Origin: a virus
DNA length: 35,381 nucleotides
Strand: one strand, 5' to 3'
IMG/VR virus record: IMGVR_UViG_3300037069_002169
Span: 1 to 35,381 of that record
This document shows positions 3,063-32,320 of this stretch, piece after piece. The notes beneath the pieces are model-generated. The model searched no databases. It was not told the DNA's origin and saw only the letters and a program-made list of their open reading frames with translations. Each line of letters starts with the position of its first letter. Positions within the stretch are counted from its first letter, which is position 1. The translations under genes were made by a program, and so were the position numbers.

Positions 3063-4608
3063 TCAGTGGATATCTGAATTCGGTGAACTCCAGGCGAAGA
3101 AAATGGCTAGGGAGTATTTTCGCGATCCGGCGAACCTTGAAGAGTTTGCAATGCTCTTCCCGGCGTATGTGCCAACGCACCTAGCAGACTTCCACGGTGA
3201 TCTATACGACTACTACGAGGCAGATGGCAACTTTGCAGGTGCCGCGCCTCGTGGTTTTAGTAAGTCGACTGTTACCGATACCATCTACCTTGCTCACAGG
3301 GCACTATATGCCCGCTCTCACTTCGTACTATTGGTATCAGATACCTTCACACAGGCTGCAGGCTTGATTGATGGTTTGAAATCAGAGTTAGAGAGCAACG
3401 AACAGATGCTGTGGCTGTTTGGCGATGTACGCGGCAAGATATGGTCGAGTGACGGGCTTATCATTCACGGCTGGGCTGACAATGGAAAGCGTGAGCCGGT
3501 TAAGATCCTGCCGCGCGGTGCTGGCATGAAAGTTCGTGGTTTGCGCTTCAAACAATACCGCCCCGATCTTGTGATTCTTGATGACCTCGAAAACGATGAG
3601 GCTGTAGAATCTCCTGAGCGCCGGGAGAAGCTATATAACTGGTTCAAACGTGCATTGCTACCGGCACTTGCTAAGGACATTAGCAAGATTATCGCTATTG
3701 GAACGCTCTTGCACCGGGAGTCGCTGTTGTCGCAGATGGTCAATGGTCAAGGTATCTTTGGTGGCTGGAACCGGCGTACCTGGCGAGGCATCAAAGAAGA
3801 CGGTACGAGCCTATGGCCTGAGCGTTTCGATGTTGAGTATCTAACCGGCATGCGTGACGACCCGACTCATCCAATGTATATGGGCCCGCTTGAGTTCAGC
3901 CAGGAAATCCAGAATAACCCGATTAGCGAAAAAGACCAGATCATCAAGCCTGAATGGACTCAGAGCCGTTATATCCTCAATAACCACCTTGTCGAATGGG
4001 CTCGTAAGATGCGCATCACCGATCCTGAAGCAGCGCTACGCTCATGGATGAAAACCCACTTCAAAAAGGTAATTGGCCACATCGACCCGGCAATCTCTGA
4101 GAGTGAAAAAGCTGACTGGTGGGCAATGGTGACGATCGGCATTACCAACAAGTGCCCTATCTGCCCGGGGGAACCGGCAGGCCACATTGTCATACTCGAT
4201 GTGATACGTTTCCGCGAGAGTGACCCCGAAGTGCAGGCGCAGGAAATCGGTGATCAGTTCTTGCTGTGGAAACAGGACAAAATTAAGATTGAGGCTGTTG
4301 CGTATCAGGCAGGACTCTACCAAATTACCAAGAGAATTGCTCAAAAGCGCGGTTTGCACATCCCAGTATGGAAGTGGAAGCCTGATCGCTCAAAGCGTCG
4401 CCGGGCAATCCTGCAAAGTGGCTCATGGGCTGGTGGTACAGTTCACATACGCATGGACATGCCACATGCAGCCGAGTTCATCGAAGAAGTGGTGCAATTC
4501 CCGCAAGGTGCGCATGATGACATGTTTGATGCCTACTTGGGTGCCGCGGAAGAAACTGTGTTGACTACCAAGCAGCGAGCATTCAGAGATAAACCACGAG
4601 GAATGTAG
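3034..4608 (+). CDS. terL: terminase large subunit (packaging ATPase/nuclease)
   Basis: A 524-residue TerL. The ATPase motifs are a Walker A-like APRGFSKST (about 71-79) and Walker B PDLVILDDLE (about 177-186). A coupling-motif-like IGTLLH follows. The C-terminal nuclease half has an acidic GHIDPAIS stretch and a late HDDMFDA motif, typical of the RNase H-like nuclease. It pumps DNA into the prohead and cuts concatemers. ATG 3034 and ATG 3046 are both possible. The second has GGTGG just upstream and gives 520 residues, and neither has a strong ribosome site. Packaging type (cos or headful) cannot be told. Confidence 0.95.
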   Translation: MVAAMAIRIDQWISEFGELQAKKMAREYFRDPANLEEFAMLFPAYVPTHLADFHGDLYDYYEADGNFAGAAPRGFSKSTVTDTIYLAHRALYARSHFVLLVSDTFTQAAGLIDGLKSELESNEQMLWLFGDVRGKIWSSDGLIIHGWADNGKREPVKILPRGAGMKVRGLRFKQYRPDLVILDDLENDEAVESPERREKLYNWFKRALLPALAKDISKIIAIGTLLHRESLLSQMVNGQGIFGGWNRRTWRGIKEDGTSLWPERFDVEYLTGMRDDPTHPMYMGPLEFSQEIQNNPISEKDQIIKPEWTQSRYILNNHLVEWARKMRITDPEAALRSWMKTHFKKVIGHIDPAISESEKADWWAMVTIGITNKCPICPGEPAGHIVILDVIRFRESDPEVQAQEIGDQFLLWKQDKIKIEAVAYQAGLYQITKRIAQKRGLHIPVWKWKPDRSKRRRAILQSGSWAGGTVHIRMDMPHAAEFIEEVVQFPQGAHDDMFDAYLGAAEETVLTTKQRAFRDKPRGM

Positions 4609-14712: not shown

Positions 14713-17172
14713 ATGGATAAAACCATACTCGACATCATACTGAGGGCCAAAGACGAAGCCTCTGCCGTTATTAACAAGGCAAGTGGTAATGTTGGTGCGA
14801 GCGGAAAACAGGCCGATAAAACGGCTCAATCTTATCAAAAGCTATCACTTATCACCGCCGGTGCATTCGTAGGCGGTCTGGCGCTTGCCGTTAAGGGTGC
14901 AGCCGATCTCCAAAGTTCAATGGTTCGCCTGGTCAGTACTGCCGGGGAAAGCCAGAAAAACCTTGCTGGTGACACTCAAGGTATTCTCGATATATCTACT
15001 GCAACGGCTACCGGCACCGATCAGCTCTCTCAGGGGCTTTACACTATTAACTCTGCCGGATATCACGGTGCGGCCGGTCTAGCAGTCTTACGAGCCGCTG
15101 CAGAGGGTGCTAAGAGCGAAAATGCCGACCTTGGCACAACTACAAATGCACTGACGACCATTCTTAATGACTACCACTACGGGGCAGATAAATCAGTCAG
15201 TGTCACTAACCAAATGCTTGCTGCAGTATCACGCGGTAAGATGAACTTCCAAGACTTCGCAGGTAGCCTCTCGGCCGTACTTCCCCTAGCGAATGCGGTA
15301 CACCTTAGTTTTGCGCAGGTTGCCGGTGCGGAAGCAACGATGACTGCCCAAGGTATGAGTGCGCAGCAATCCTCTCAGGATCTTGCAAACACCATCCGGG
15401 CATTGAGTAACCCGAACCAAGTGGCAATCAATGAGATGCAACAGCTTGGGCTTAACTCGAACGATGTCTCTATGCAACTCGGCAAGAAGGGTCTGACTGG
15501 AACGCTCGACACCCTTACGACGGCAATTACGCAGCACATGGGCCCTGCCGGTACAGTCATCATGGATGCTTTCAACCAATCAAAATCAGCCGCCGAAGAT
15601 GCAAACATCATGCTCTCTAAGCTTCCCGGATCTATCCAGGGCATTGCTAAGTCATACCTTGCCGGAACCACATCACAGGCAGCGTGGAAACTATCATTAC
15701 AGGAGATGTCGCCGCTCAATGCCAACCTAGCTAAGCAGTTTGCAACTGTCGCAGACAAAGCCCATGGCTTCAATAGCTTGATCAAATCTGGCTCGCCTGC
15801 AGCGCAAACCTACACCGCCGCGCTTTCGAAGATGACTGGTGGCGCTACCGGCCTAAACACGGCCTTGATGCTTACTGGTGCCAACTCCTCAACATTCAAA
15901 TCAAACGTGGATGCCGTGGCAGGCGCAGCCAAAAAGGGCGGCAAGAACATTGACGGTTGGAACCTCATCCAAGGCACTTTCAATTTCCAGCTTAAGCAGG
16001 CCAAAGAAGCTGTCGAGAACGCCGGTAAAGCAATCGGCACCGCCTTACTGCCAAGCGTAACGACTCTAGCAAAAATCCTCGTTGGTATCGTCAAGCCTGT
16101 TGCAGAGTGGGCCAATAGTCACAAGAAGCTTGCTGCGATTATAGTTACCTCACTTGCAGCGATCGCTACATTCGTGGCTATCGTTCTTACTCTTCAGTCA
16201 GCACTTACTAAGGTAAAAACTACCATGAGTATCTTAAAAGCCGCATTCATAGCGGAAGATGGCACGATACGAATAGTATCGGTTGCTACGAAAGCCTGGG
16301 CCGGTGTCCAGTGGATTCTAAATGCAGCAATGGGTGCAATGCCCATTATCGCTATCATCGCTGGCGTCATAGCTCTTATCGCTGTCGTGGTGCTCATTGT
16401 CAAACACTGGAAGGCAGTCTCCGGTTTCTTCGAAAAGCTATGGAAGGACGTCGTAGGGTTCTTCAAGCACCACATTGATTTGATTCTTACCATTGTCGGC
16501 GGCCCACTCGTTGGTTTGGTCATTCTAATCATCAAGCACTGGGGTCAAATAACCGGCTTCTTTAAGAAGTTGTGGAACGATATCACAAGCGACATAACGA
16601 CCTTCGTAAAGGCAGTGATTGATTTCTTCACTAAGTTACCAGGCGAGGCGCTGCATGCGCTTGGTAACGGCAGAAAGTTACTCGCAAACTTCGGTAAAGA
16701 CATCATCCAAGGTTTGGTGAATGGCGTGAAGGGTGCCGCACACTTGGCTACTGATGCCGTTAAGGATGTTGGTAAAGGTGTCGTCGACGGCTTCAAGGGC
16801 TTGCTCGGTATTCACTCACCATCAACCGTATTCGCGGAAGCCGGTAAAAACATTGGCCAAGGTTTGGCGCAGGGCATCGGCGCATCTAAAGGTATCGTTG
16901 GCGGTGCTACTAAGCAACTTGCCGATTCTACGACAGGTTCTTTCGGAACTGCAGCACAACGACCATCTACTACTGCACCCGGAGGACAAGCGGCACCTAC
17001 TGCATCGCAGGGCGCTAGTAACGTCAATATTACGGTAAATATCGGTGTCTATGCCGGAACACAGACTGAAAAGCAGCGCGTGGCAACGGAAATGTGGCAG
17101 GCTCTGATGCAAGTTGCCAGGTCGCACAATATGGCGGGTAACGTTCCTAATTTAGGGATTAGGCCGGTATAG
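14713..17172 (+). CDS. tape measure protein
   Basis: An 819-residue protein, GAGGAACC before ATG. The N-terminus (MDKTILDIILRAKDEASA) and Ala/Ser/Gln-rich helical body are typical. A TP901-type core lies around residues 70-260 (TATGTDQLSQGLYTINSAGY; NFQDFAGSLSAVLPLANAV). Hydrophobic segments lie near 475-495, 540-565 and 585-605. Two related W-x-x-FF-x-KLW units follow the last two. The C-terminal GIHSPSTVFAEAGKNIGQGL motif is common in tape measures. It sets tail length, here roughly 120 nm by the usual 0.15 nm per residue rule. Confidence 0.93.
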   Translation: MDKTILDIILRAKDEASAVINKASGNVGASGKQADKTAQSYQKLSLITAGAFVGGLALAVKGAADLQSSMVRLVSTAGESQKNLAGDTQGILDISTATATGTDQLSQGLYTINSAGYHGAAGLAVLRAAAEGAKSENADLGTTTNALTTILNDYHYGADKSVSVTNQMLAAVSRGKMNFQDFAGSLSAVLPLANAVHLSFAQVAGAEATMTAQGMSAQQSSQDLANTIRALSNPNQVAINEMQQLGLNSNDVSMQLGKKGLTGTLDTLTTAITQHMGPAGTVIMDAFNQSKSAAEDANIMLSKLPGSIQGIAKSYLAGTTSQAAWKLSLQEMSPLNANLAKQFATVADKAHGFNSLIKSGSPAAQTYTAALSKMTGGATGLNTALMLTGANSSTFKSNVDAVAGAAKKGGKNIDGWNLIQGTFNFQLKQAKEAVENAGKAIGTALLPSVTTLAKILVGIVKPVAEWANSHKKLAAIIVTSLAAIATFVAIVLTLQSALTKVKTTMSILKAAFIAEDGTIRIVSVATKAWAGVQWILNAAMGAMPIIAIIAGVIALIAVVVLIVKHWKAVSGFFEKLWKDVVGFFKHHIDLILTIVGGPLVGLVILIIKHWGQITGFFKKLWNDITSDITTFVKAVIDFFTKLPGEALHALGNGRKLLANFGKDIIQGLVNGVKGAAHLATDAVKDVGKGVVDGFKGLLGIHSPSTVFAEAGKNIGQGLAQGIGASKGIVGGATKQLADSTTGSFGTAAQRPSTTAPGGQAAPTASQGASNVNITVNIGVYAGTQTEKQRVATEMWQALMQVARSHNMAGNVPNLGIRPV

Positions 17173-27640: not shown

Positions 27641-28528
27641 ATGACAATCACAGAGGCATTCAACCTCTATCGATTAGACTGCATCGTGTTCCGAAACCAA
27701 TCTCCAAAGACAGAAGAAAACCATTCTTATGCGCTCAAGTGGCTCATAGAATTTGCCGGTGATATCCAGATCGAGGATTTAAGCTTCGATCAGGTTCGCA
27801 ACTGGAAACTCTGGCTGGATAAAGGCACTAATGGCAAACCGCGTAGTGCCTCAACGGTACGGGAATATATAATCAGGCTTCGAGTGGTTCTTCGTCATGC
27901 CCAAAAACGCGGTTATGGTGTGCTCGATTTTGAGCTGATACCGATCCCTAAGCGTACAGAGAAGATACCGGAGTTCTTGAGCAAGCAACAGGTTGCCGAG
28001 CTGATATTTGAGGTAGGAAAGCCAGCCAGAGGCTACCCAAGGATCAATCGTTCGCGCAATGTAGCAATCATCAGTTTGCTCTATGCGTCTGGCATTCGTG
28101 CGGCGGAGCTATGCCGTCTTAACCGATCGGATATTCGCCCGGATGGTAGTTTCACAGTGTTTGGCAAAGGCAGTAAATACCGTCTGTGCTTTATTGATGA
28201 GCGCACCCGTATGTTTCTTGAGGATTATCTTATGATGCGCACCGATAGCAACCCTGCGCTTTTTACGGCCAATCAGAATGGCCTCCGTCTTTCAAAGCAT
28301 ACGCTGCAACGCATTTTTGAGTATGCCAGGGGTAGGGTAGATTTTGAGGTATTGGTGCATGCCCATATGCTGCGGCACTCGTTCGCCACTGATCTACTGC
28401 GAAATAATACCAATATGCGCTACGTTCAAGTGATGCTAGGCCATAGCAGTTTGACTACGACCCAGATGTATACCCACGTTGTCGACGAGGATCTCCATAG
28501 GGTCTATGCGACCAATCATACCTATTAA
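27641..28528 (+). CDS. int: tyrosine recombinase (integrase/XerC-D type)
   Basis: A 295-residue protein, AGGAAAG 10 bases before ATG. An N-terminal SAM-like core-binding domain (about 1-100) is followed by the catalytic domain, with Arg153 (ASGIRAAELC), Lys176 (FGKGSKY), His242-x-x-Arg245 (HMLRHSFATD), His268 (LGHSS) and nucleophile Tyr277. It cuts and joins DNA through a 3'-phosphotyrosine. Length and sequence are XerC/D-like without an arm-binding domain. It sits next to a tRNA gene, suiting phage integration. It is also the only recombinase seen that could drive the fibre inversion at 19839-20714. Confidence 0.93.
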   Translation: MTITEAFNLYRLDCIVFRNQSPKTEENHSYALKWLIEFAGDIQIEDLSFDQVRNWKLWLDKGTNGKPRSASTVREYIIRLRVVLRHAQKRGYGVLDFELIPIPKRTEKIPEFLSKQQVAELIFEVGKPARGYPRINRSRNVAIISLLYASGIRAAELCRLNRSDIRPDGSFTVFGKGSKYRLCFIDERTRMFLEDYLMMRTDSNPALFTANQNGLRLSKHTLQRIFEYARGRVDFEVLVHAHMLRHSFATDLLRNNTNMRYVQVMLGHSSLTTTQMYTHVVDEDLHRVYATNHTY

Positions 28529-28535
28529 GCTTATG

Positions 28536-28564
28536 TTGACATAACTGCTATGGTTTGGTATTAT
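28536..28564 (+). promoter_or_regulatory. strong promoter of the tRNA region
   Basis: Consensus TTGACA (28536-28541), exactly 17 bases, then TATTAT (28559-28564). The spacer contains CTGCTATGGTT, the upstream element of the repeated promoters. Transcription would begin near 28571 and run through the tRNA-like element and tRNA-Gly to the terminator at 28829. Confidence 0.85.
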
Positions 28565-28654
28565 CAGGGTAAGTCGTTCATTAGAACAATCGAAACTTTA
28601 CAAGTTAGCTTCACAGAAAAACACGAATAGTGGCAATTTTGAAGCTAACATCGG

Positions 28655-28725
28655 TGCGCAGCGCTCTTAGGGCGCATCCTTGCCAAGGATGTGAAGCTCT
28701 CTAAGCGACAGAGATACATCCAGCA
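28655..28725 (+). other. tRNA-like element with Gly(GCC) anticodon arm
   Basis: CATCC-TTGCCAA-GGATG (28675-28691) is a perfect five-pair anticodon arm with the same seven-base loop as the true tRNA-Gly downstream. A GCGC/GCGC stem sits in the D-arm place (28661-28675), and CTCT/AGAG can form a T-arm-like hairpin. No acceptor stem pairs, so it is not a working tRNA by eye. It could be a decayed tRNA, an attachment-site remnant or a tRNA mimic. Confidence 0.5.
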
Positions 28726-28738
28726 GTTAAAAATTTAT

Positions 28739-28815
28739 GCGGGTCTAGCTCAGTTGTTTAGAGCGCCACCTTGCCAAGGTGGAGGCCAGGGGTTAGAGTC
28801 CCCTGACCCGCACCA
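28739..28815 (+). tRNA. tRNA-Gly (anticodon GCC), CCA encoded
   Basis: A complete cloverleaf: acceptor GCGGGTC/GACCCGC (7 pairs), D-stem GCTC/GAGC, anticodon stem CCACC/GGTGG with loop TTGCCAA, variable AGGCC, T-stem AGGGG/CCCCT with loop TTAGAGT, discriminator A and encoded CCA. It reads GGC and GGT, and GGC is the main Gly codon of the repeat protein at the window ends. Odd points: position 19 is T and position 56 is A in place of the near-universal G19-C56, and position 73 is A where bacterial tRNA-Gly usually has U. Confidence 0.95.
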
Positions 28816-28828
28816 ATGTTAGTCAACC

Positions 28829-28858
28829 AATCCGTCACATATCGTGGCGGATTTTTTA
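28829..28858 (+). terminator. intrinsic terminator after tRNA
   Basis: AATCCGTCAC pairs with GTGGCGGATT (one T-G pair) around a five-base loop, followed by TTTTATT. It ends the tRNA transcript 13 bases after CCA. Confidence 0.88.
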
Positions 28859-28874
28859 TTATCCGCGTGAAACA

Positions 28875-28893
28875 AGTGACATTTGGGGTCACT
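28875..28893. promoter_or_regulatory. inverted repeat, possible operator
   Basis: AGTGAC and GTCACT, seven bases apart, form a six-base inverted repeat between two terminators. It may be a regulator-binding site for a promoter I cannot place. Confidence 0.35.
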
Positions 28894-28927
28894 GACTCAA
28901 CGCATATCTTTCTATCTTGAAATCTAT

Positions 28928-28954
28928 AACCCCTCTGTCACGAGGGGTTTTTTT
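28928..28954 (+). terminator. intrinsic terminator
   Basis: AACCCCTC pairs perfectly with GAGGGGTT around TGTCAC, followed by seven T (28948-28954). It is 70 bases after the tRNA terminator with no gene between, so either a short RNA lies between them or it serves as back-up insulation before the early region. Confidence 0.88.
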
Positions 28955-28991
28955 GATCCTGGTGCCATAAATAGCAGTTTGTGACCAGGAC

Positions 28992-29147
28992 GGGAGAAAT
29001 CCCACTCAATCGAGTGAACGGTTTTTTGCGAAAGAGCTTTAAGCGTTCGCATCCTACTAGCAAGATTGGGAGCTTTATGCAGCGGTGGAGCGCTGATGCC
29101 GGGGATAACGTCGTGTAAGTTTGCGAGCAAGTACGCGATGCCCCGGC
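28992..29147 (+). ncRNA. structured RNA / leader upstream of early operon
   Basis: A run of hairpins: GGGA-GAAA-TCCC with a GNRA loop (28992-29003); CACTC/GAGTG (29003-29016) with TTTTTT soon after; GCGAA/TTCGC enclosing GCT/AGC (29028-29050); AGCG/CGCT (29081-29094); and a long hairpin GCCGGGG...CCCCGGC (29098-29147) that continues, after a four-base bulge, with a nine-pair stem CGTCGTGTA/TACGCGATG. No ORF here has a ribosome site. It may be a riboswitch-like leader, attenuator or small RNA. Confidence 0.55.
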
Positions 29148-29188
29148 GGGAGATCCATAAAAATAAACAACTAAACGAAAGGAGACAT

Positions 29189-29284
29189 ATGTTGTCTTTC
29201 TTAAAAAAGCACGAAGGTTTCATTTACGAGTTTCTCATGGGAGCTTTTTTGGCAATCTTCGTTATCGAATATTTCACTACTTAA
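29189..29284 (+). CDS. 31-residue single-span membrane peptide
   Basis: ATG 29189 with AAAGGAG seven bases upstream. The product starts MLSFLKKHEGFIYEF and continues LMGAFLAIFVIEYFTT: a basic N-terminus and one membrane span. It is the first gene of the early operon and follows the structured leader. A longer in-frame start at 29066 would read through that leader and is rejected. Function unknown; small phage membrane peptides of this kind often act on the host envelope. Confidence 0.65.
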   Translation: MLSFLKKHEGFIYEFLMGAFLAIFVIEYFTT

Positions 29285-29304
29285 TCCATAGGAAGGATAA
29301 AACT

Positions 29305-30318
29305 ATGGCTAACAATTCGCTCCAGCTCTACATCCGCAGCGGAGCCGCGCAGAGCAGCATCGAGCAAACGCTGAAAGATCGTGCAGACGACTTCACGACC
29401 TCATTGCTGACTGTGATCAATGGTAACCCTGTGTTGCAAGAGTGTGATGCTCAGGAAGTGGTACGGACGGCCCTAAAAGCCGCCAGTATGCGCTTGCCGA
29501 TAGATCCCAACCTCGGGTTGGCTTACATAATTCCATATCAGAATACCAAGAAAATTCGCGAAGAATGGACAGACAGCAAAGGTGTCGTTCGTTATCGCGA
29601 CAAATTTATTAAGAAATACGAACCGCAATTGCAGATTGGCTGGAAAGGCTTTGTGCAGCTTGCGCTGCGCACTCGGCTCTACAAGACCATCAACGTTACC
29701 GATGTGCGTGAAGGTGAATATAACGGCCAGGATCGTCTGACTGGTGTCATTCACTTTGAGTGGATCGACGATAATGCAGAGCGCGAGAAGTTACCTATAT
29801 CTGGCTATGTTGCCTATTTCAGGCTGCACGATGGTTTCGAAAAGATCCTATACATGAGTTTTGATGAGCTCGAAGATCACGCTAAGAAATACAGCAAATC
29901 ATACCAGTACGGTAACGGTAAGTGGGTTGACGATAAGCCAAACATGTCTAAAAAAACAGTCGTTAAGCTGTTGATTAGCAAGTGGGGGCCACAGTCTACC
30001 GAAATCCAGAAGGCTCTACGCGCTGATCAGGCTGCAATGGGTGACGATGATACCTATAACTACGTCGACAACGATAAAAGCAAAGACACTACCGATCAAA
30101 CGCCTGCAACAGGTGACGAGCCAACCACTGGAACTGACGATGTCGCAGAAGGTGAAGTAGTAGATGCTCCGGCCGCTGATGATATCGATCAGACTCCAGT
30201 CGAAGTTCCTGCCACACCGCAGGAACCACAAAAATCAGTGAAAGAAAAGGCTGCAGCCTGGACTGCAAAGCATAAGGCTGAAGCAGCCGAAAAACGAGGT
30301 GATAGCAATGAGCAATAA
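29305..30318 (+). CDS. recT: RecT single-strand annealing protein
   Basis: A 337-residue RecT-family protein, AGGAAGG site. The core lies at about residues 25-235: VVRTALKAASMRLPIDPNLG, YIIPYQN, LQIGWKGFVQLALRTRLYK and KPNMSKKTVVKLLISKWG are typical RecT blocks. The C-terminal 100 residues are acidic, Thr/Pro-rich and probably disordered, ending in a basic helix. RecT anneals single strands left by a 5'-3' exonuclease. The next gene starts inside its last codons and encodes a nuclease, the expected partner. Confidence 0.94.
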   Translation: MANNSLQLYIRSGAAQSSIEQTLKDRADDFTTSLLTVINGNPVLQECDAQEVVRTALKAASMRLPIDPNLGLAYIIPYQNTKKIREEWTDSKGVVRYRDKFIKKYEPQLQIGWKGFVQLALRTRLYKTINVTDVREGEYNGQDRLTGVIHFEWIDDNAEREKLPISGYVAYFRLHDGFEKILYMSFDELEDHAKKYSKSYQYGNGKWVDDKPNMSKKTVVKLLISKWGPQSTEIQKALRADQAAMGDDDTYNYVDNDKSKDTTDQTPATGDEPTTGTDDVAEGEVVDAPAADDIDQTPVEVPATPQEPQKSVKEKAAAWTAKHKAEAAEKRGDSNEQ

Positions 30319-32320
30319 TCTTATCGACTATTGGTCCTACTCAAGTATGGCATCACTTCTCAGCAACCCAATGGCGTTCAAGAAGCAATACATTCTCAAG
30401 CAATATGACGATCTTACGAGTCCATCCGCACTGGTCGGTTCTGCCTGCCACAAGGCACTCGAAATGTTCTTTAAGGGATTAGACCAAGATGCTGCGATCT
30501 CCGAAGGTTTGAAGGTCATTAACGAGAAATCTGACATTGGCATCAATTATGGCAAGACCGGAACTCGCGCCGCTATTCTAGCGACTTACACCAAGGCAAT
30601 AAACTACGCTTTCGCAGAGCTTCCTACATTCCACGAGCTCCTTGGCGTGGAAGAAAGCATAACGATCGAAATCGATAGCATGACCGGCGGCACAATGGCT
30701 CTTCCCGCCAAAGCCAAGATGGATATTGTCGAGCGCAACAAACTTGGCGAACTCGAGATAACTGACTGGAAATTCGTAAAAAGTTACACCAATGCAGATG
30801 TCGATGATTTCAAGAAATGGCTACAAGGCATGTTTAACTACTACGTCATTAAGGCTAAGTACGGTGAGGCTCCGGCTCGTATTCGATACCGCGAGTGTAA
30901 GGTTACGGGCAATAAAGACAACACGCCACAGATGCAGGCATATACCTACGAGTTTAACAGCCCGGCTGATTTTGCCACCTTCGAGAAGCTATACAACGAA
31001 TGCACTACGCAGATCAGTTTGCCCGGCTATCAATTCCTACCGAACCCGAACGACATCTTTGATGGTCAAATAACCTTTGAGATATACCGCCAAGGCATCA
31101 TGGGTGTTGAAGCGCCAGTCGCCGTACCGCATAAGACTGAACAAGTGGCTTTTGCCGATAAACAGTTCGTGCCAAGTGCTGGTGATCGGGTAGAAAACAA
31201 AGATCTATCGATGGAAGAACGCATCCGTCTGAAGATGCAGGAGTTTGTCGGCGCTGTCGAAATGCAGGAGACTCACGTTGGCCCTAGCGTTACGCAGTAC
31301 ACCCTAAAAGTGTCTCGCGGTATCCCAATGAGCAAGATTGCTCGAATGGATAGAGATATCGCACTCGCAATTGAAGCCCGTAGCTTGCGTGTAGAGGCTC
31401 CAATACCTGGAACTGGGCTAGTTGGCATCGAAGTGCCTAGCGCCGTTCGAAAGACCGTTGAGCTGACTGATAACCATCTGCGCCCAGGTACGCTTCAGTT
31501 ACCTATCGGCGTAAACGTCTTTAACGAAGTCATCTACAAAGATCTTGGCGATATGCCGCACCTGCTCGTTGCCGGAGCGACTGGCGCAGGTAAGTCAGTG
31601 ATGCTGAATGTAATCATCCAGGCACTCACTAAGCAGCTTACACCTGATGCATTGCAATTGGTTCTCGTAGATCCAAAGCAGGTAGAGTTTGCGCCTTTTG
31701 AAAGTCTGCCGCACCTTGCGCTACCAGTTGTCTACGACAACAAAGGTGCCGCGAATGTACTGGCTGCAACCGTCGAAGAAATGGAGAAGCGCTACAAGAT
31801 GCTGCGCCGTCGTAATTGCCGGTCAATCCAAGAGTTCAACGCAAAGGGTAAACCAATGCCATACCGAGTGCTGATCCTGGACGAGTTTGCCGATCTGATG
31901 ATGACCGCCGAAAAGCAGCCTGTCGGAAATATCGACATCAAACAATTTAACGAGAACTTACTGTTTCACATTGCCAACGGTAATGGCAAGCTCACGCAAA
32001 AAGCGACCAAAGCAGCACTAGCAGATACGCTCGATGATGGCATCGCGCCTGCAGAGCAGTCAATCATACGTCTGGCTCAGAAGGCTCGAGCTGTTGGTAT
32101 TCACCTGATACTTGCGACTCAGCGACCAAGCGCAGATGTTGTTACCGGCCTAATTAAGGCAAACATTCCTACCAAGATTGCATTCATGACCACGAGCAAA
32201 GTGAATAGCCAGATCGTGATCGACCAGAGTGGAGCTGAAGAGCTCACCGGCAAAGGCGACATGCTATTCCTCGATCCAACTAAAGCAGGCTTAACACGGC
32301 TGCAAGGGCTGTACTGCTGA
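30308..32320 (+). CDS. PD-(D/E)XK nuclease fused to FtsK-type DNA translocase
   Basis: A 670-residue two-part protein, ATG 30308 behind GAGGTGA. Residues 1-265 are a RecB/Cas4-like nuclease: GSACHKALE with His48, Asp139 in KAKMDIVE, Asp153-x-Lys155 (ITDWKF), and Gln173 before NYY. Residues about 305-670 are an FtsK motor: the alpha-domain pattern HVGPSVTQY and APIPGTGLVGIEVPS, Walker A GATGAGKS (423-430), Walker B VLILDEFADL (521-530) and LATQRPSADVV. It ends where the beta domain ends (DMLFLDP...RLQGLYC), so the sequence-reading gamma domain and membrane anchor are absent. Probably a motor-driven exonuclease for RecT; this is inferred. Confidence 0.9.
   Translation: MSNNLIDYWSYSSMASLLSNPMAFKKQYILKQYDDLTSPSALVGSACHKALEMFFKGLDQDAAISEGLKVINEKSDIGINYGKTGTRAAILATYTKAINYAFAELPTFHELLGVEESITIEIDSMTGGTMALPAKAKMDIVERNKLGELEITDWKFVKSYTNADVDDFKKWLQGMFNYYVIKAKYGEAPARIRYRECKVTGNKDNTPQMQAYTYEFNSPADFATFEKLYNECTTQISLPGYQFLPNPNDIFDGQITFEIYRQGIMGVEAPVAVPHKTEQVAFADKQFVPSAGDRVENKDLSMEERIRLKMQEFVGAVEMQETHVGPSVTQYTLKVSRGIPMSKIARMDRDIALAIEARSLRVEAPIPGTGLVGIEVPSAVRKTVELTDNHLRPGTLQLPIGVNVFNEVIYKDLGDMPHLLVAGATGAGKSVMLNVIIQALTKQLTPDALQLVLVDPKQVEFAPFESLPHLALPVVYDNKGAANVLAATVEEMEKRYKMLRRRNCRSIQEFNAKGKPMPYRVLILDEFADLMMTAEKQPVGNIDIKQFNENLLFHIANGNGKLTQKATKAALADTLDDGIAPAEQSIIRLAQKARAVGIHLILATQRPSADVVTGLIKANIPTKIAFMTTSKVNSQIVIDQSGAEELTGKGDMLFLDPTKAGLTRLQGLYC

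Follow-up and report, generated by a model that had tools for sequence, protein, structure and literature searches.

Why would a virus carry a transfer RNA (tRNA) that departs from the near-universal G19-C56 pair of the elbow, and what purpose would such a tRNA serve? We addressed this question for the only tRNA gene found in the viral record IMGVR_UViG_3300037069_002169, analysed over its full length of 35,381 nt (the window), which encodes a tRNA-Gly with the anticodon GCC and the pair U19-A56. The elbow turned out to be normal for tRNA-Gly(GCC) in Saccharibacteria, a class of very small parasitic bacteria. The order of integrase, phage attachment (attP)-like site, tRNA and terminator in the window, together with an integrated relative, argues for replacement of a split host tRNA, and we consider it probable (about 0.8) that the gene is the replacement tRNA of a temperate Saccharibacteria phage integrating into the host tRNA-Gly(GCC).

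ARAGORN and Rfam agreed exactly on the ends of the gene, and the match to RF00005 (69.4 bits, E 2.6e-13, gathering score 29) covered a full cloverleaf, identifying a tRNA gene. Read 5′ to 3′, the gene consists of GCGGGTC TA GCTC AGTTGTTTA GAGC G CCACC TTGCCAA GGTGG AGGCC AGGGG TTAGAGT CCCCT GACCCGC A CCA, with the CCA 3′ end encoded. The D-loop AGTTGTTTA provides G18-U19 (U19 at 28757), the T-loop TTAGAGT provides U54-U55-A56 (A56 at 28795), and A73 lies at 28812. Since all four stems are paired, the 19-56 change is compensatory (U-A), as the earlier note had read it, and the sequence is consistent with a working tRNA that combines this pair with A73.

We scanned 84,980 species genomes of bacteria and archaea with a pattern for tRNA-Gly(GCC) carrying U19 and A56 and obtained 85 matching stretches. 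Nearly all lineage-named records among them were Saccharibacteria or Patescibacteria, the remainder being bacterial metagenome-assembled genomes (MAGs) without a lineage name, one Doudnabacteria and two Chlamydiae MAGs, one of which is a phage contig. Within the Saccharibacteria class, the U19 form was present in 256 of 392 genomes and the G19 form in one; the number 256 is a lower bound, as incomplete assembly or deviations at other bases required by the patterns may account for the 135 genomes in which neither form was matched. The sole G19 gene (genome G295), possibly of foreign origin, carries U73 and is located close to one end of a contig of 4186 bases. When the pattern fixed U19 and left position 56 free, A56 was found in 30/30 host loci, indicating that the 19-56 pairing is not due to chance. 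The complete genome CP025011 encodes 43 tRNAs. U19-A56 is confined to the single tRNA-Gly(GCC) among them; G18-G19 and TTC are present in tRNA-Gly(CCC), tRNA-Gly(TCC) and the other tRNAs. As the only tRNA-Gly(GCC) of that genome, the U19-A56 tRNA must serve translation. The non-proteinogenic tRNA-Gly of staphylococci, with its altered D- and T-loops, is likewise a bacterial tRNA-Gly off the canonical elbow; unlike it, the tRNA described here retains G18, U54 and U55, its 19-56 change is compensated, and the elbow sits on the sole tRNA-Gly(GCC) of a complete host genome. In the open-access literature on U19-A56 or on Saccharibacteria and tRNA-Gly, we found no description of the elbow.

The discriminator base followed the same lineage. 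A73 was present in 104/104 host tRNA-Gly(GCC) genes compared and in all three glycine tRNAs of CP025011. A73 accompanies the α2-type glycyl-tRNA synthetase (GlyRS) in archaea and eukaryotes, and U73 accompanies the α2β2 enzyme. The α2-type GlyRS was matched in 61/61 Saccharibacteria genomes (59 above the cut-off), and the α subunit of the α2β2 enzyme was found in 0/61, with a positive E. coli control; A73 and the α2-type GlyRS are therefore lineage traits. Thus the earlier note was right that U19-A56 is unusual among tRNAs in general and that A73 is present; neither is an oddity within the host lineage, and its view of a tRNA altered relative to the host finds no support. A 19-56 pair shared with host tRNAs, which that note had named as the sign of a lineage-normal elbow, is what the host comparison revealed.

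The surroundings of the gene pointed to integration (Table 1). tRNA-dependent lysogeny has been described in actinobacteriophages (Fionnbharth, LeBron, Gaia and others), where its defining features are a phage tRNA that matches the host tRNA in isotype, a tyrosine integrase, and a short attachment core from which the host tRNA is not restored (Guerrero-Bustamante and Hatfull 2024, PMC10865867). In the window, Pfam and PHROGs both identified a tyrosine integrase upstream of the tRNA. A repeat search revealed that the anticodon arm recurs as TTAGGGCGCATCCTTGCCAAGGATG between the integrase and the tRNA, about 50 bp upstream of the latter and without the rest of a tRNA. The 20-bp part GCGCATCCTTGCCAAGGATG of this copy (28672–28691) occurs without mismatch in host tRNA-Gly genes of the CATCC-stem class, and the 13-bp TCCTTGCCAAGGA is the stretch it shares with the tRNA-Gly of the Saccharibacterial genome G267, which makes this copy a putative attP. 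We joined host and phage in silico at this core for five hosts: the left junction (attL) contained the phage tRNA only and the right junction (attR) contained no tRNA, so that the modelled integration rebuilt no host tRNA. A single tRNA-Gly(GCC) match was present in 249 of the 256 matching class genomes and, as noted above, in CP025011. In a host with one copy and no rebuilt tRNA, the phage gene would be the only tRNA-Gly(GCC) left.

The left junction was also found in nature. A tRNA pattern fixed to the 77-nt form had no viral match; a wider pattern picked up G002, a contig with two tRNA-like matches whose terminase, among the terminase relatives in viral contigs, is 77% identical to that of the window. 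Within the first 4.5 kb of G002, a CYTH gene is followed by a promoter (TTGCAC-N17-TATAAT) and by the 5′ half of a tRNA-Gly, which runs as far as CCTTGCCAAGGA. Next come 70-odd phage-like bases that end in AGCAGTTAAAAATTTAT, a sequence also found ahead of the window tRNA, and then an intact tRNA-Gly(GCC) with U19-A56, the same isotype as in the window phage. The uncut site was present in G267, where a CYTH homologue (89% identical), one further gene and the same promoter precede a whole tRNA-Gly(GCC). Positions 597–693 of G002 aligned to this site at 89%, and the divergence began inside the anticodon arm, which identifies a natural left junction: as judged from this alignment, the prophage splits the host tRNA-Gly and places the phage tRNA behind the host promoter. 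The position of the attP-like core in the window is homologous to this junction, and the order of core, ~50–70-bp spacer, tRNA and terminator is common to both phages.

These observations suggest the following course of events. Recombination by the integrase would take place between the anticodon-arm copy at ~28678 (attP) and the corresponding arm of the usually single host tRNA-Gly(GCC) gene (the bacterial site, attB). Because attP matches only the anticodon arm, the host gene would be cut into two useless halves, and the phage tRNA ~50 bp behind attP would supply the lost tRNA-Gly(GCC), which probably keeps the host cell viable. In the lysogen, the phage tRNA would lie directly behind the host tRNA promoter and before the phage terminator, a promoter take-over; in the free phage, the promoter-like site at 28536, a candidate promoter for the attP-tRNA unit, would read through attP into the tRNA. 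We infer use of the site by this integrase, expression and charging of the tRNA, promoter take-over and the need of lysogeny for the tRNA from these sequence features.

Table 1 Features of the window around the tRNA-Gly gene
Feature	Position	Strand	Evidence
Tyrosine-family integrase, 295 aa	27641..28528	+	Pfam Phage_integrase 103.6 bits, SAM-like N-terminal domain PF13102, PHROG integrase 1.6e-46
Promoter-like TTGACA-N17-TATTAT, 11/12, TG before second hexamer	28536..28564	+	Consensus scan only
attP-like core TTAG(g)GCGCATCCTTGCCAAGGATG	28667..28691	+	Repeat search, host-gene comparison, modelled attachment junctions, junction homology with G002
tRNA-Gly(GCC), intact	28739..28815	+	ARAGORN, Rfam; alignment with host and phage relatives
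5′ side of flipped pairs, C28, A29 (hosts G/A/T28, T29)	28767..28768	+	98 host genes of 77 nt
3′ side of flipped pairs, T41, G42 (hosts A41, C/T/A42)	28780..28781	+	98 host genes of 77 nt
Terminator-like hairpin and T-run, directly 3′ of tRNA	28829..28862	+	Kept in G002 and L086

Several findings weigh against this proposal. A few host genomes contain a second tRNA-Gly(GCC) match; tRNA-Gly(TCC) might read GGC/GGU poorly and still well enough; and neither attR nor an integrase was found in G002, a contig that ends among the tail genes before that region. The assignment of the window phage to Saccharibacteria as host class likewise rests on tRNA similarity. A check for split genes in class genomes with two U19 matches turned up mostly additional intact copies or the ends of contigs. 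One such exception to the single copy, the Saccharibacterial genome G091 (L188, L189), contains two tRNA-Gly(GCC) genes, both intact, that differ in their acceptor stems. The second copy in G086 (L187, ~14800–14900, minus strand) is truncated in the T-arm and may be a remnant left by a different integrated element.

What does set the phage gene apart emerged from a comparison with 98 host genes, all likewise 77 nt long. It differs from the nearest 23 host genes only at gene positions 29, 30, 42 and 43, which form two complementary anticodon-stem pairs compensated on both sides; T30-A42 was present in 98/98 hosts versus A30-T42 in the phage tRNA. Host anticodon stems were limited to CGTCC, CATCC, CTTCC and CTGCC. 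The flipped pairs fall inside the 20-bp attachment core, of which attP retains the host form, and the G002 phage tRNA has one flipped pair there (CGTGC versus host CGTCC) plus a few other changes. It is possible, and we offer it tentatively, that the flipped pairs make the integrase ignore this spare gene, which would gain the host promoter from its place behind attP upon integration. Against this idea, flipped stems were seen in two cases only (the window and G002), and the tRNAs of two further phages, L086 and L155, of unknown attachment sites, have host-like stems.

The earlier note had suggested that the tRNA might evade elbow- or anticodon-directed host defences. The rarity of a 19-56 U-A among tRNAs in general speaks for a phage adaptation against host nucleases or other defences of this kind, as does the general knowledge, discussed in PMC10865867, that phage tRNAs can counter tRNA-cutting defences. 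However, host tRNAs share the elbow with the phage tRNA, as well as the discriminator base and the anticodon loop, so the elbow cannot tell phage from host; we rejected it as a means of evasion and give this explanation hardly any credence. Only the two anticodon-stem pairs, the sole departure from the 23 host genes, could still be candidates. The gene might instead be a functionless by-product of imprecise excision or an earlier integration, given that phages integrating into tRNA genes can acquire host tRNA sequence and that the window gene is 95% identical to host genes. Such an origin is very unlikely for a gene that is intact, has stem changes compensated on both sides and its own terminator, and belongs to a unit conserved in three phages at 76–79% DNA identity.

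A lytic translation aid, with codon supply as the main task and the adjacency to attP incidental, finds some support in G400 (L155), a Saccharibacteria-type phage with a U19-A56 tRNA-Gly(GCC) and no tyrosine integrase found on its 37.9-kb contig. We regard this explanation as unlikely for the window, as the core-spacer-tRNA-terminator order is retained in the window and in integrated G002, where the host copy is physically destroyed. Replacement of the host tRNA in lysogeny accordingly remains our preferred account of the gene, at the probability given above.

In having a tyrosine integrase, attB in a host tRNA gene, a short non-rebuilding core and a host with a minimal tRNA set, the proposed system resembles that of the actinobacteriophages. 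The published table of cases holds actinobacteriophages only, with Lys, Ile2 and Leu tRNAs (PMC10865867), and the open-access literature yielded no Saccharibacterial case. The present one differs in host class, in isotype, Gly(GCC), and in core length (13–20 bp). The Fionnbharth tRNA, which overlaps with a second gene, has a tested promoter of its own (PMC10865867), whereas the window tRNA lies so close to attP that integration would set it behind the host tRNA promoter. Unlike the actinobacteriophage tRNAs, it is a near copy of the host tRNA in which only core-flanking pairs are changed. The position that provides the host promoter and the flipped stem pairs inside the core may both be new. 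With classical integration into tRNA genes the system shares the tyrosine integrase and the core at the anticodon arm; it differs from classical cases, in which attP rebuilds the tRNA, in that the modelled attL and attR lack a rebuilt host tRNA.

Promoter-like sites were found four times in the region versus 0.8 expected, and close relatives of the integrase were not found in viral contigs. The non-coding stretch 28816–29003 behind the tRNA contains two terminator-like hairpins plus a third hairpin, CCTGGTGCCATAAATAGCAGTTTGTGACCAGG, is conserved in the phages G002 and L086, and matched no Rfam family at threshold; a permissive-threshold Rfam search over 28500–29300 returned nothing else credible. 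L086 (JABEVM010000234.1), filed under a Chlamydiae MAG and probably misbinned there, carries this phage type with the tRNA-Gly, the same downstream stretch and a RecT-like gene. After the tRNA region of the window lie RecT and, adjoining it at 30299–32320, a PD-(D/E)XK nuclease and an FtsK/SpoIIIE motor (alpha and motor domains) in one frame, a fusion also present in L008 at 56% identity. Prophages of class genomes that encode RecT were considered as users of the tRNA-Gly site and rejected, no tRNA-Gly being nearby. In L155 (IMGVR_UViG_3300050821_002720, 4106–4275), the U19-A56 tRNA-Gly(GCC) is located between the swapped halves of another tRNA: the 3′ half, which ends in CGGGGCCACCA, precedes it, and the 5′ half, which begins with GGCCCCGTAGC, follows directly. 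The halves have complementary acceptor and anticodon stems, as in a permuted tRNA gene, and this was the one such contig in the viral collection.

Taken together, our analysis indicates that tRNA-dependent lysogeny most likely also occurs in phages of the reduced Saccharibacteria, with an essential single-copy tRNA as the landing site. If the flipped pairs do shield the spare from the phage's own integrase, they would represent a simple way, found in nature, of making a replacement gene cut-proof. A whole bacterial class with a non-canonical 19-56 pair in tRNA-Gly(GCC) alone also offers a natural test of the role of the near-universal G19-C56 pair.
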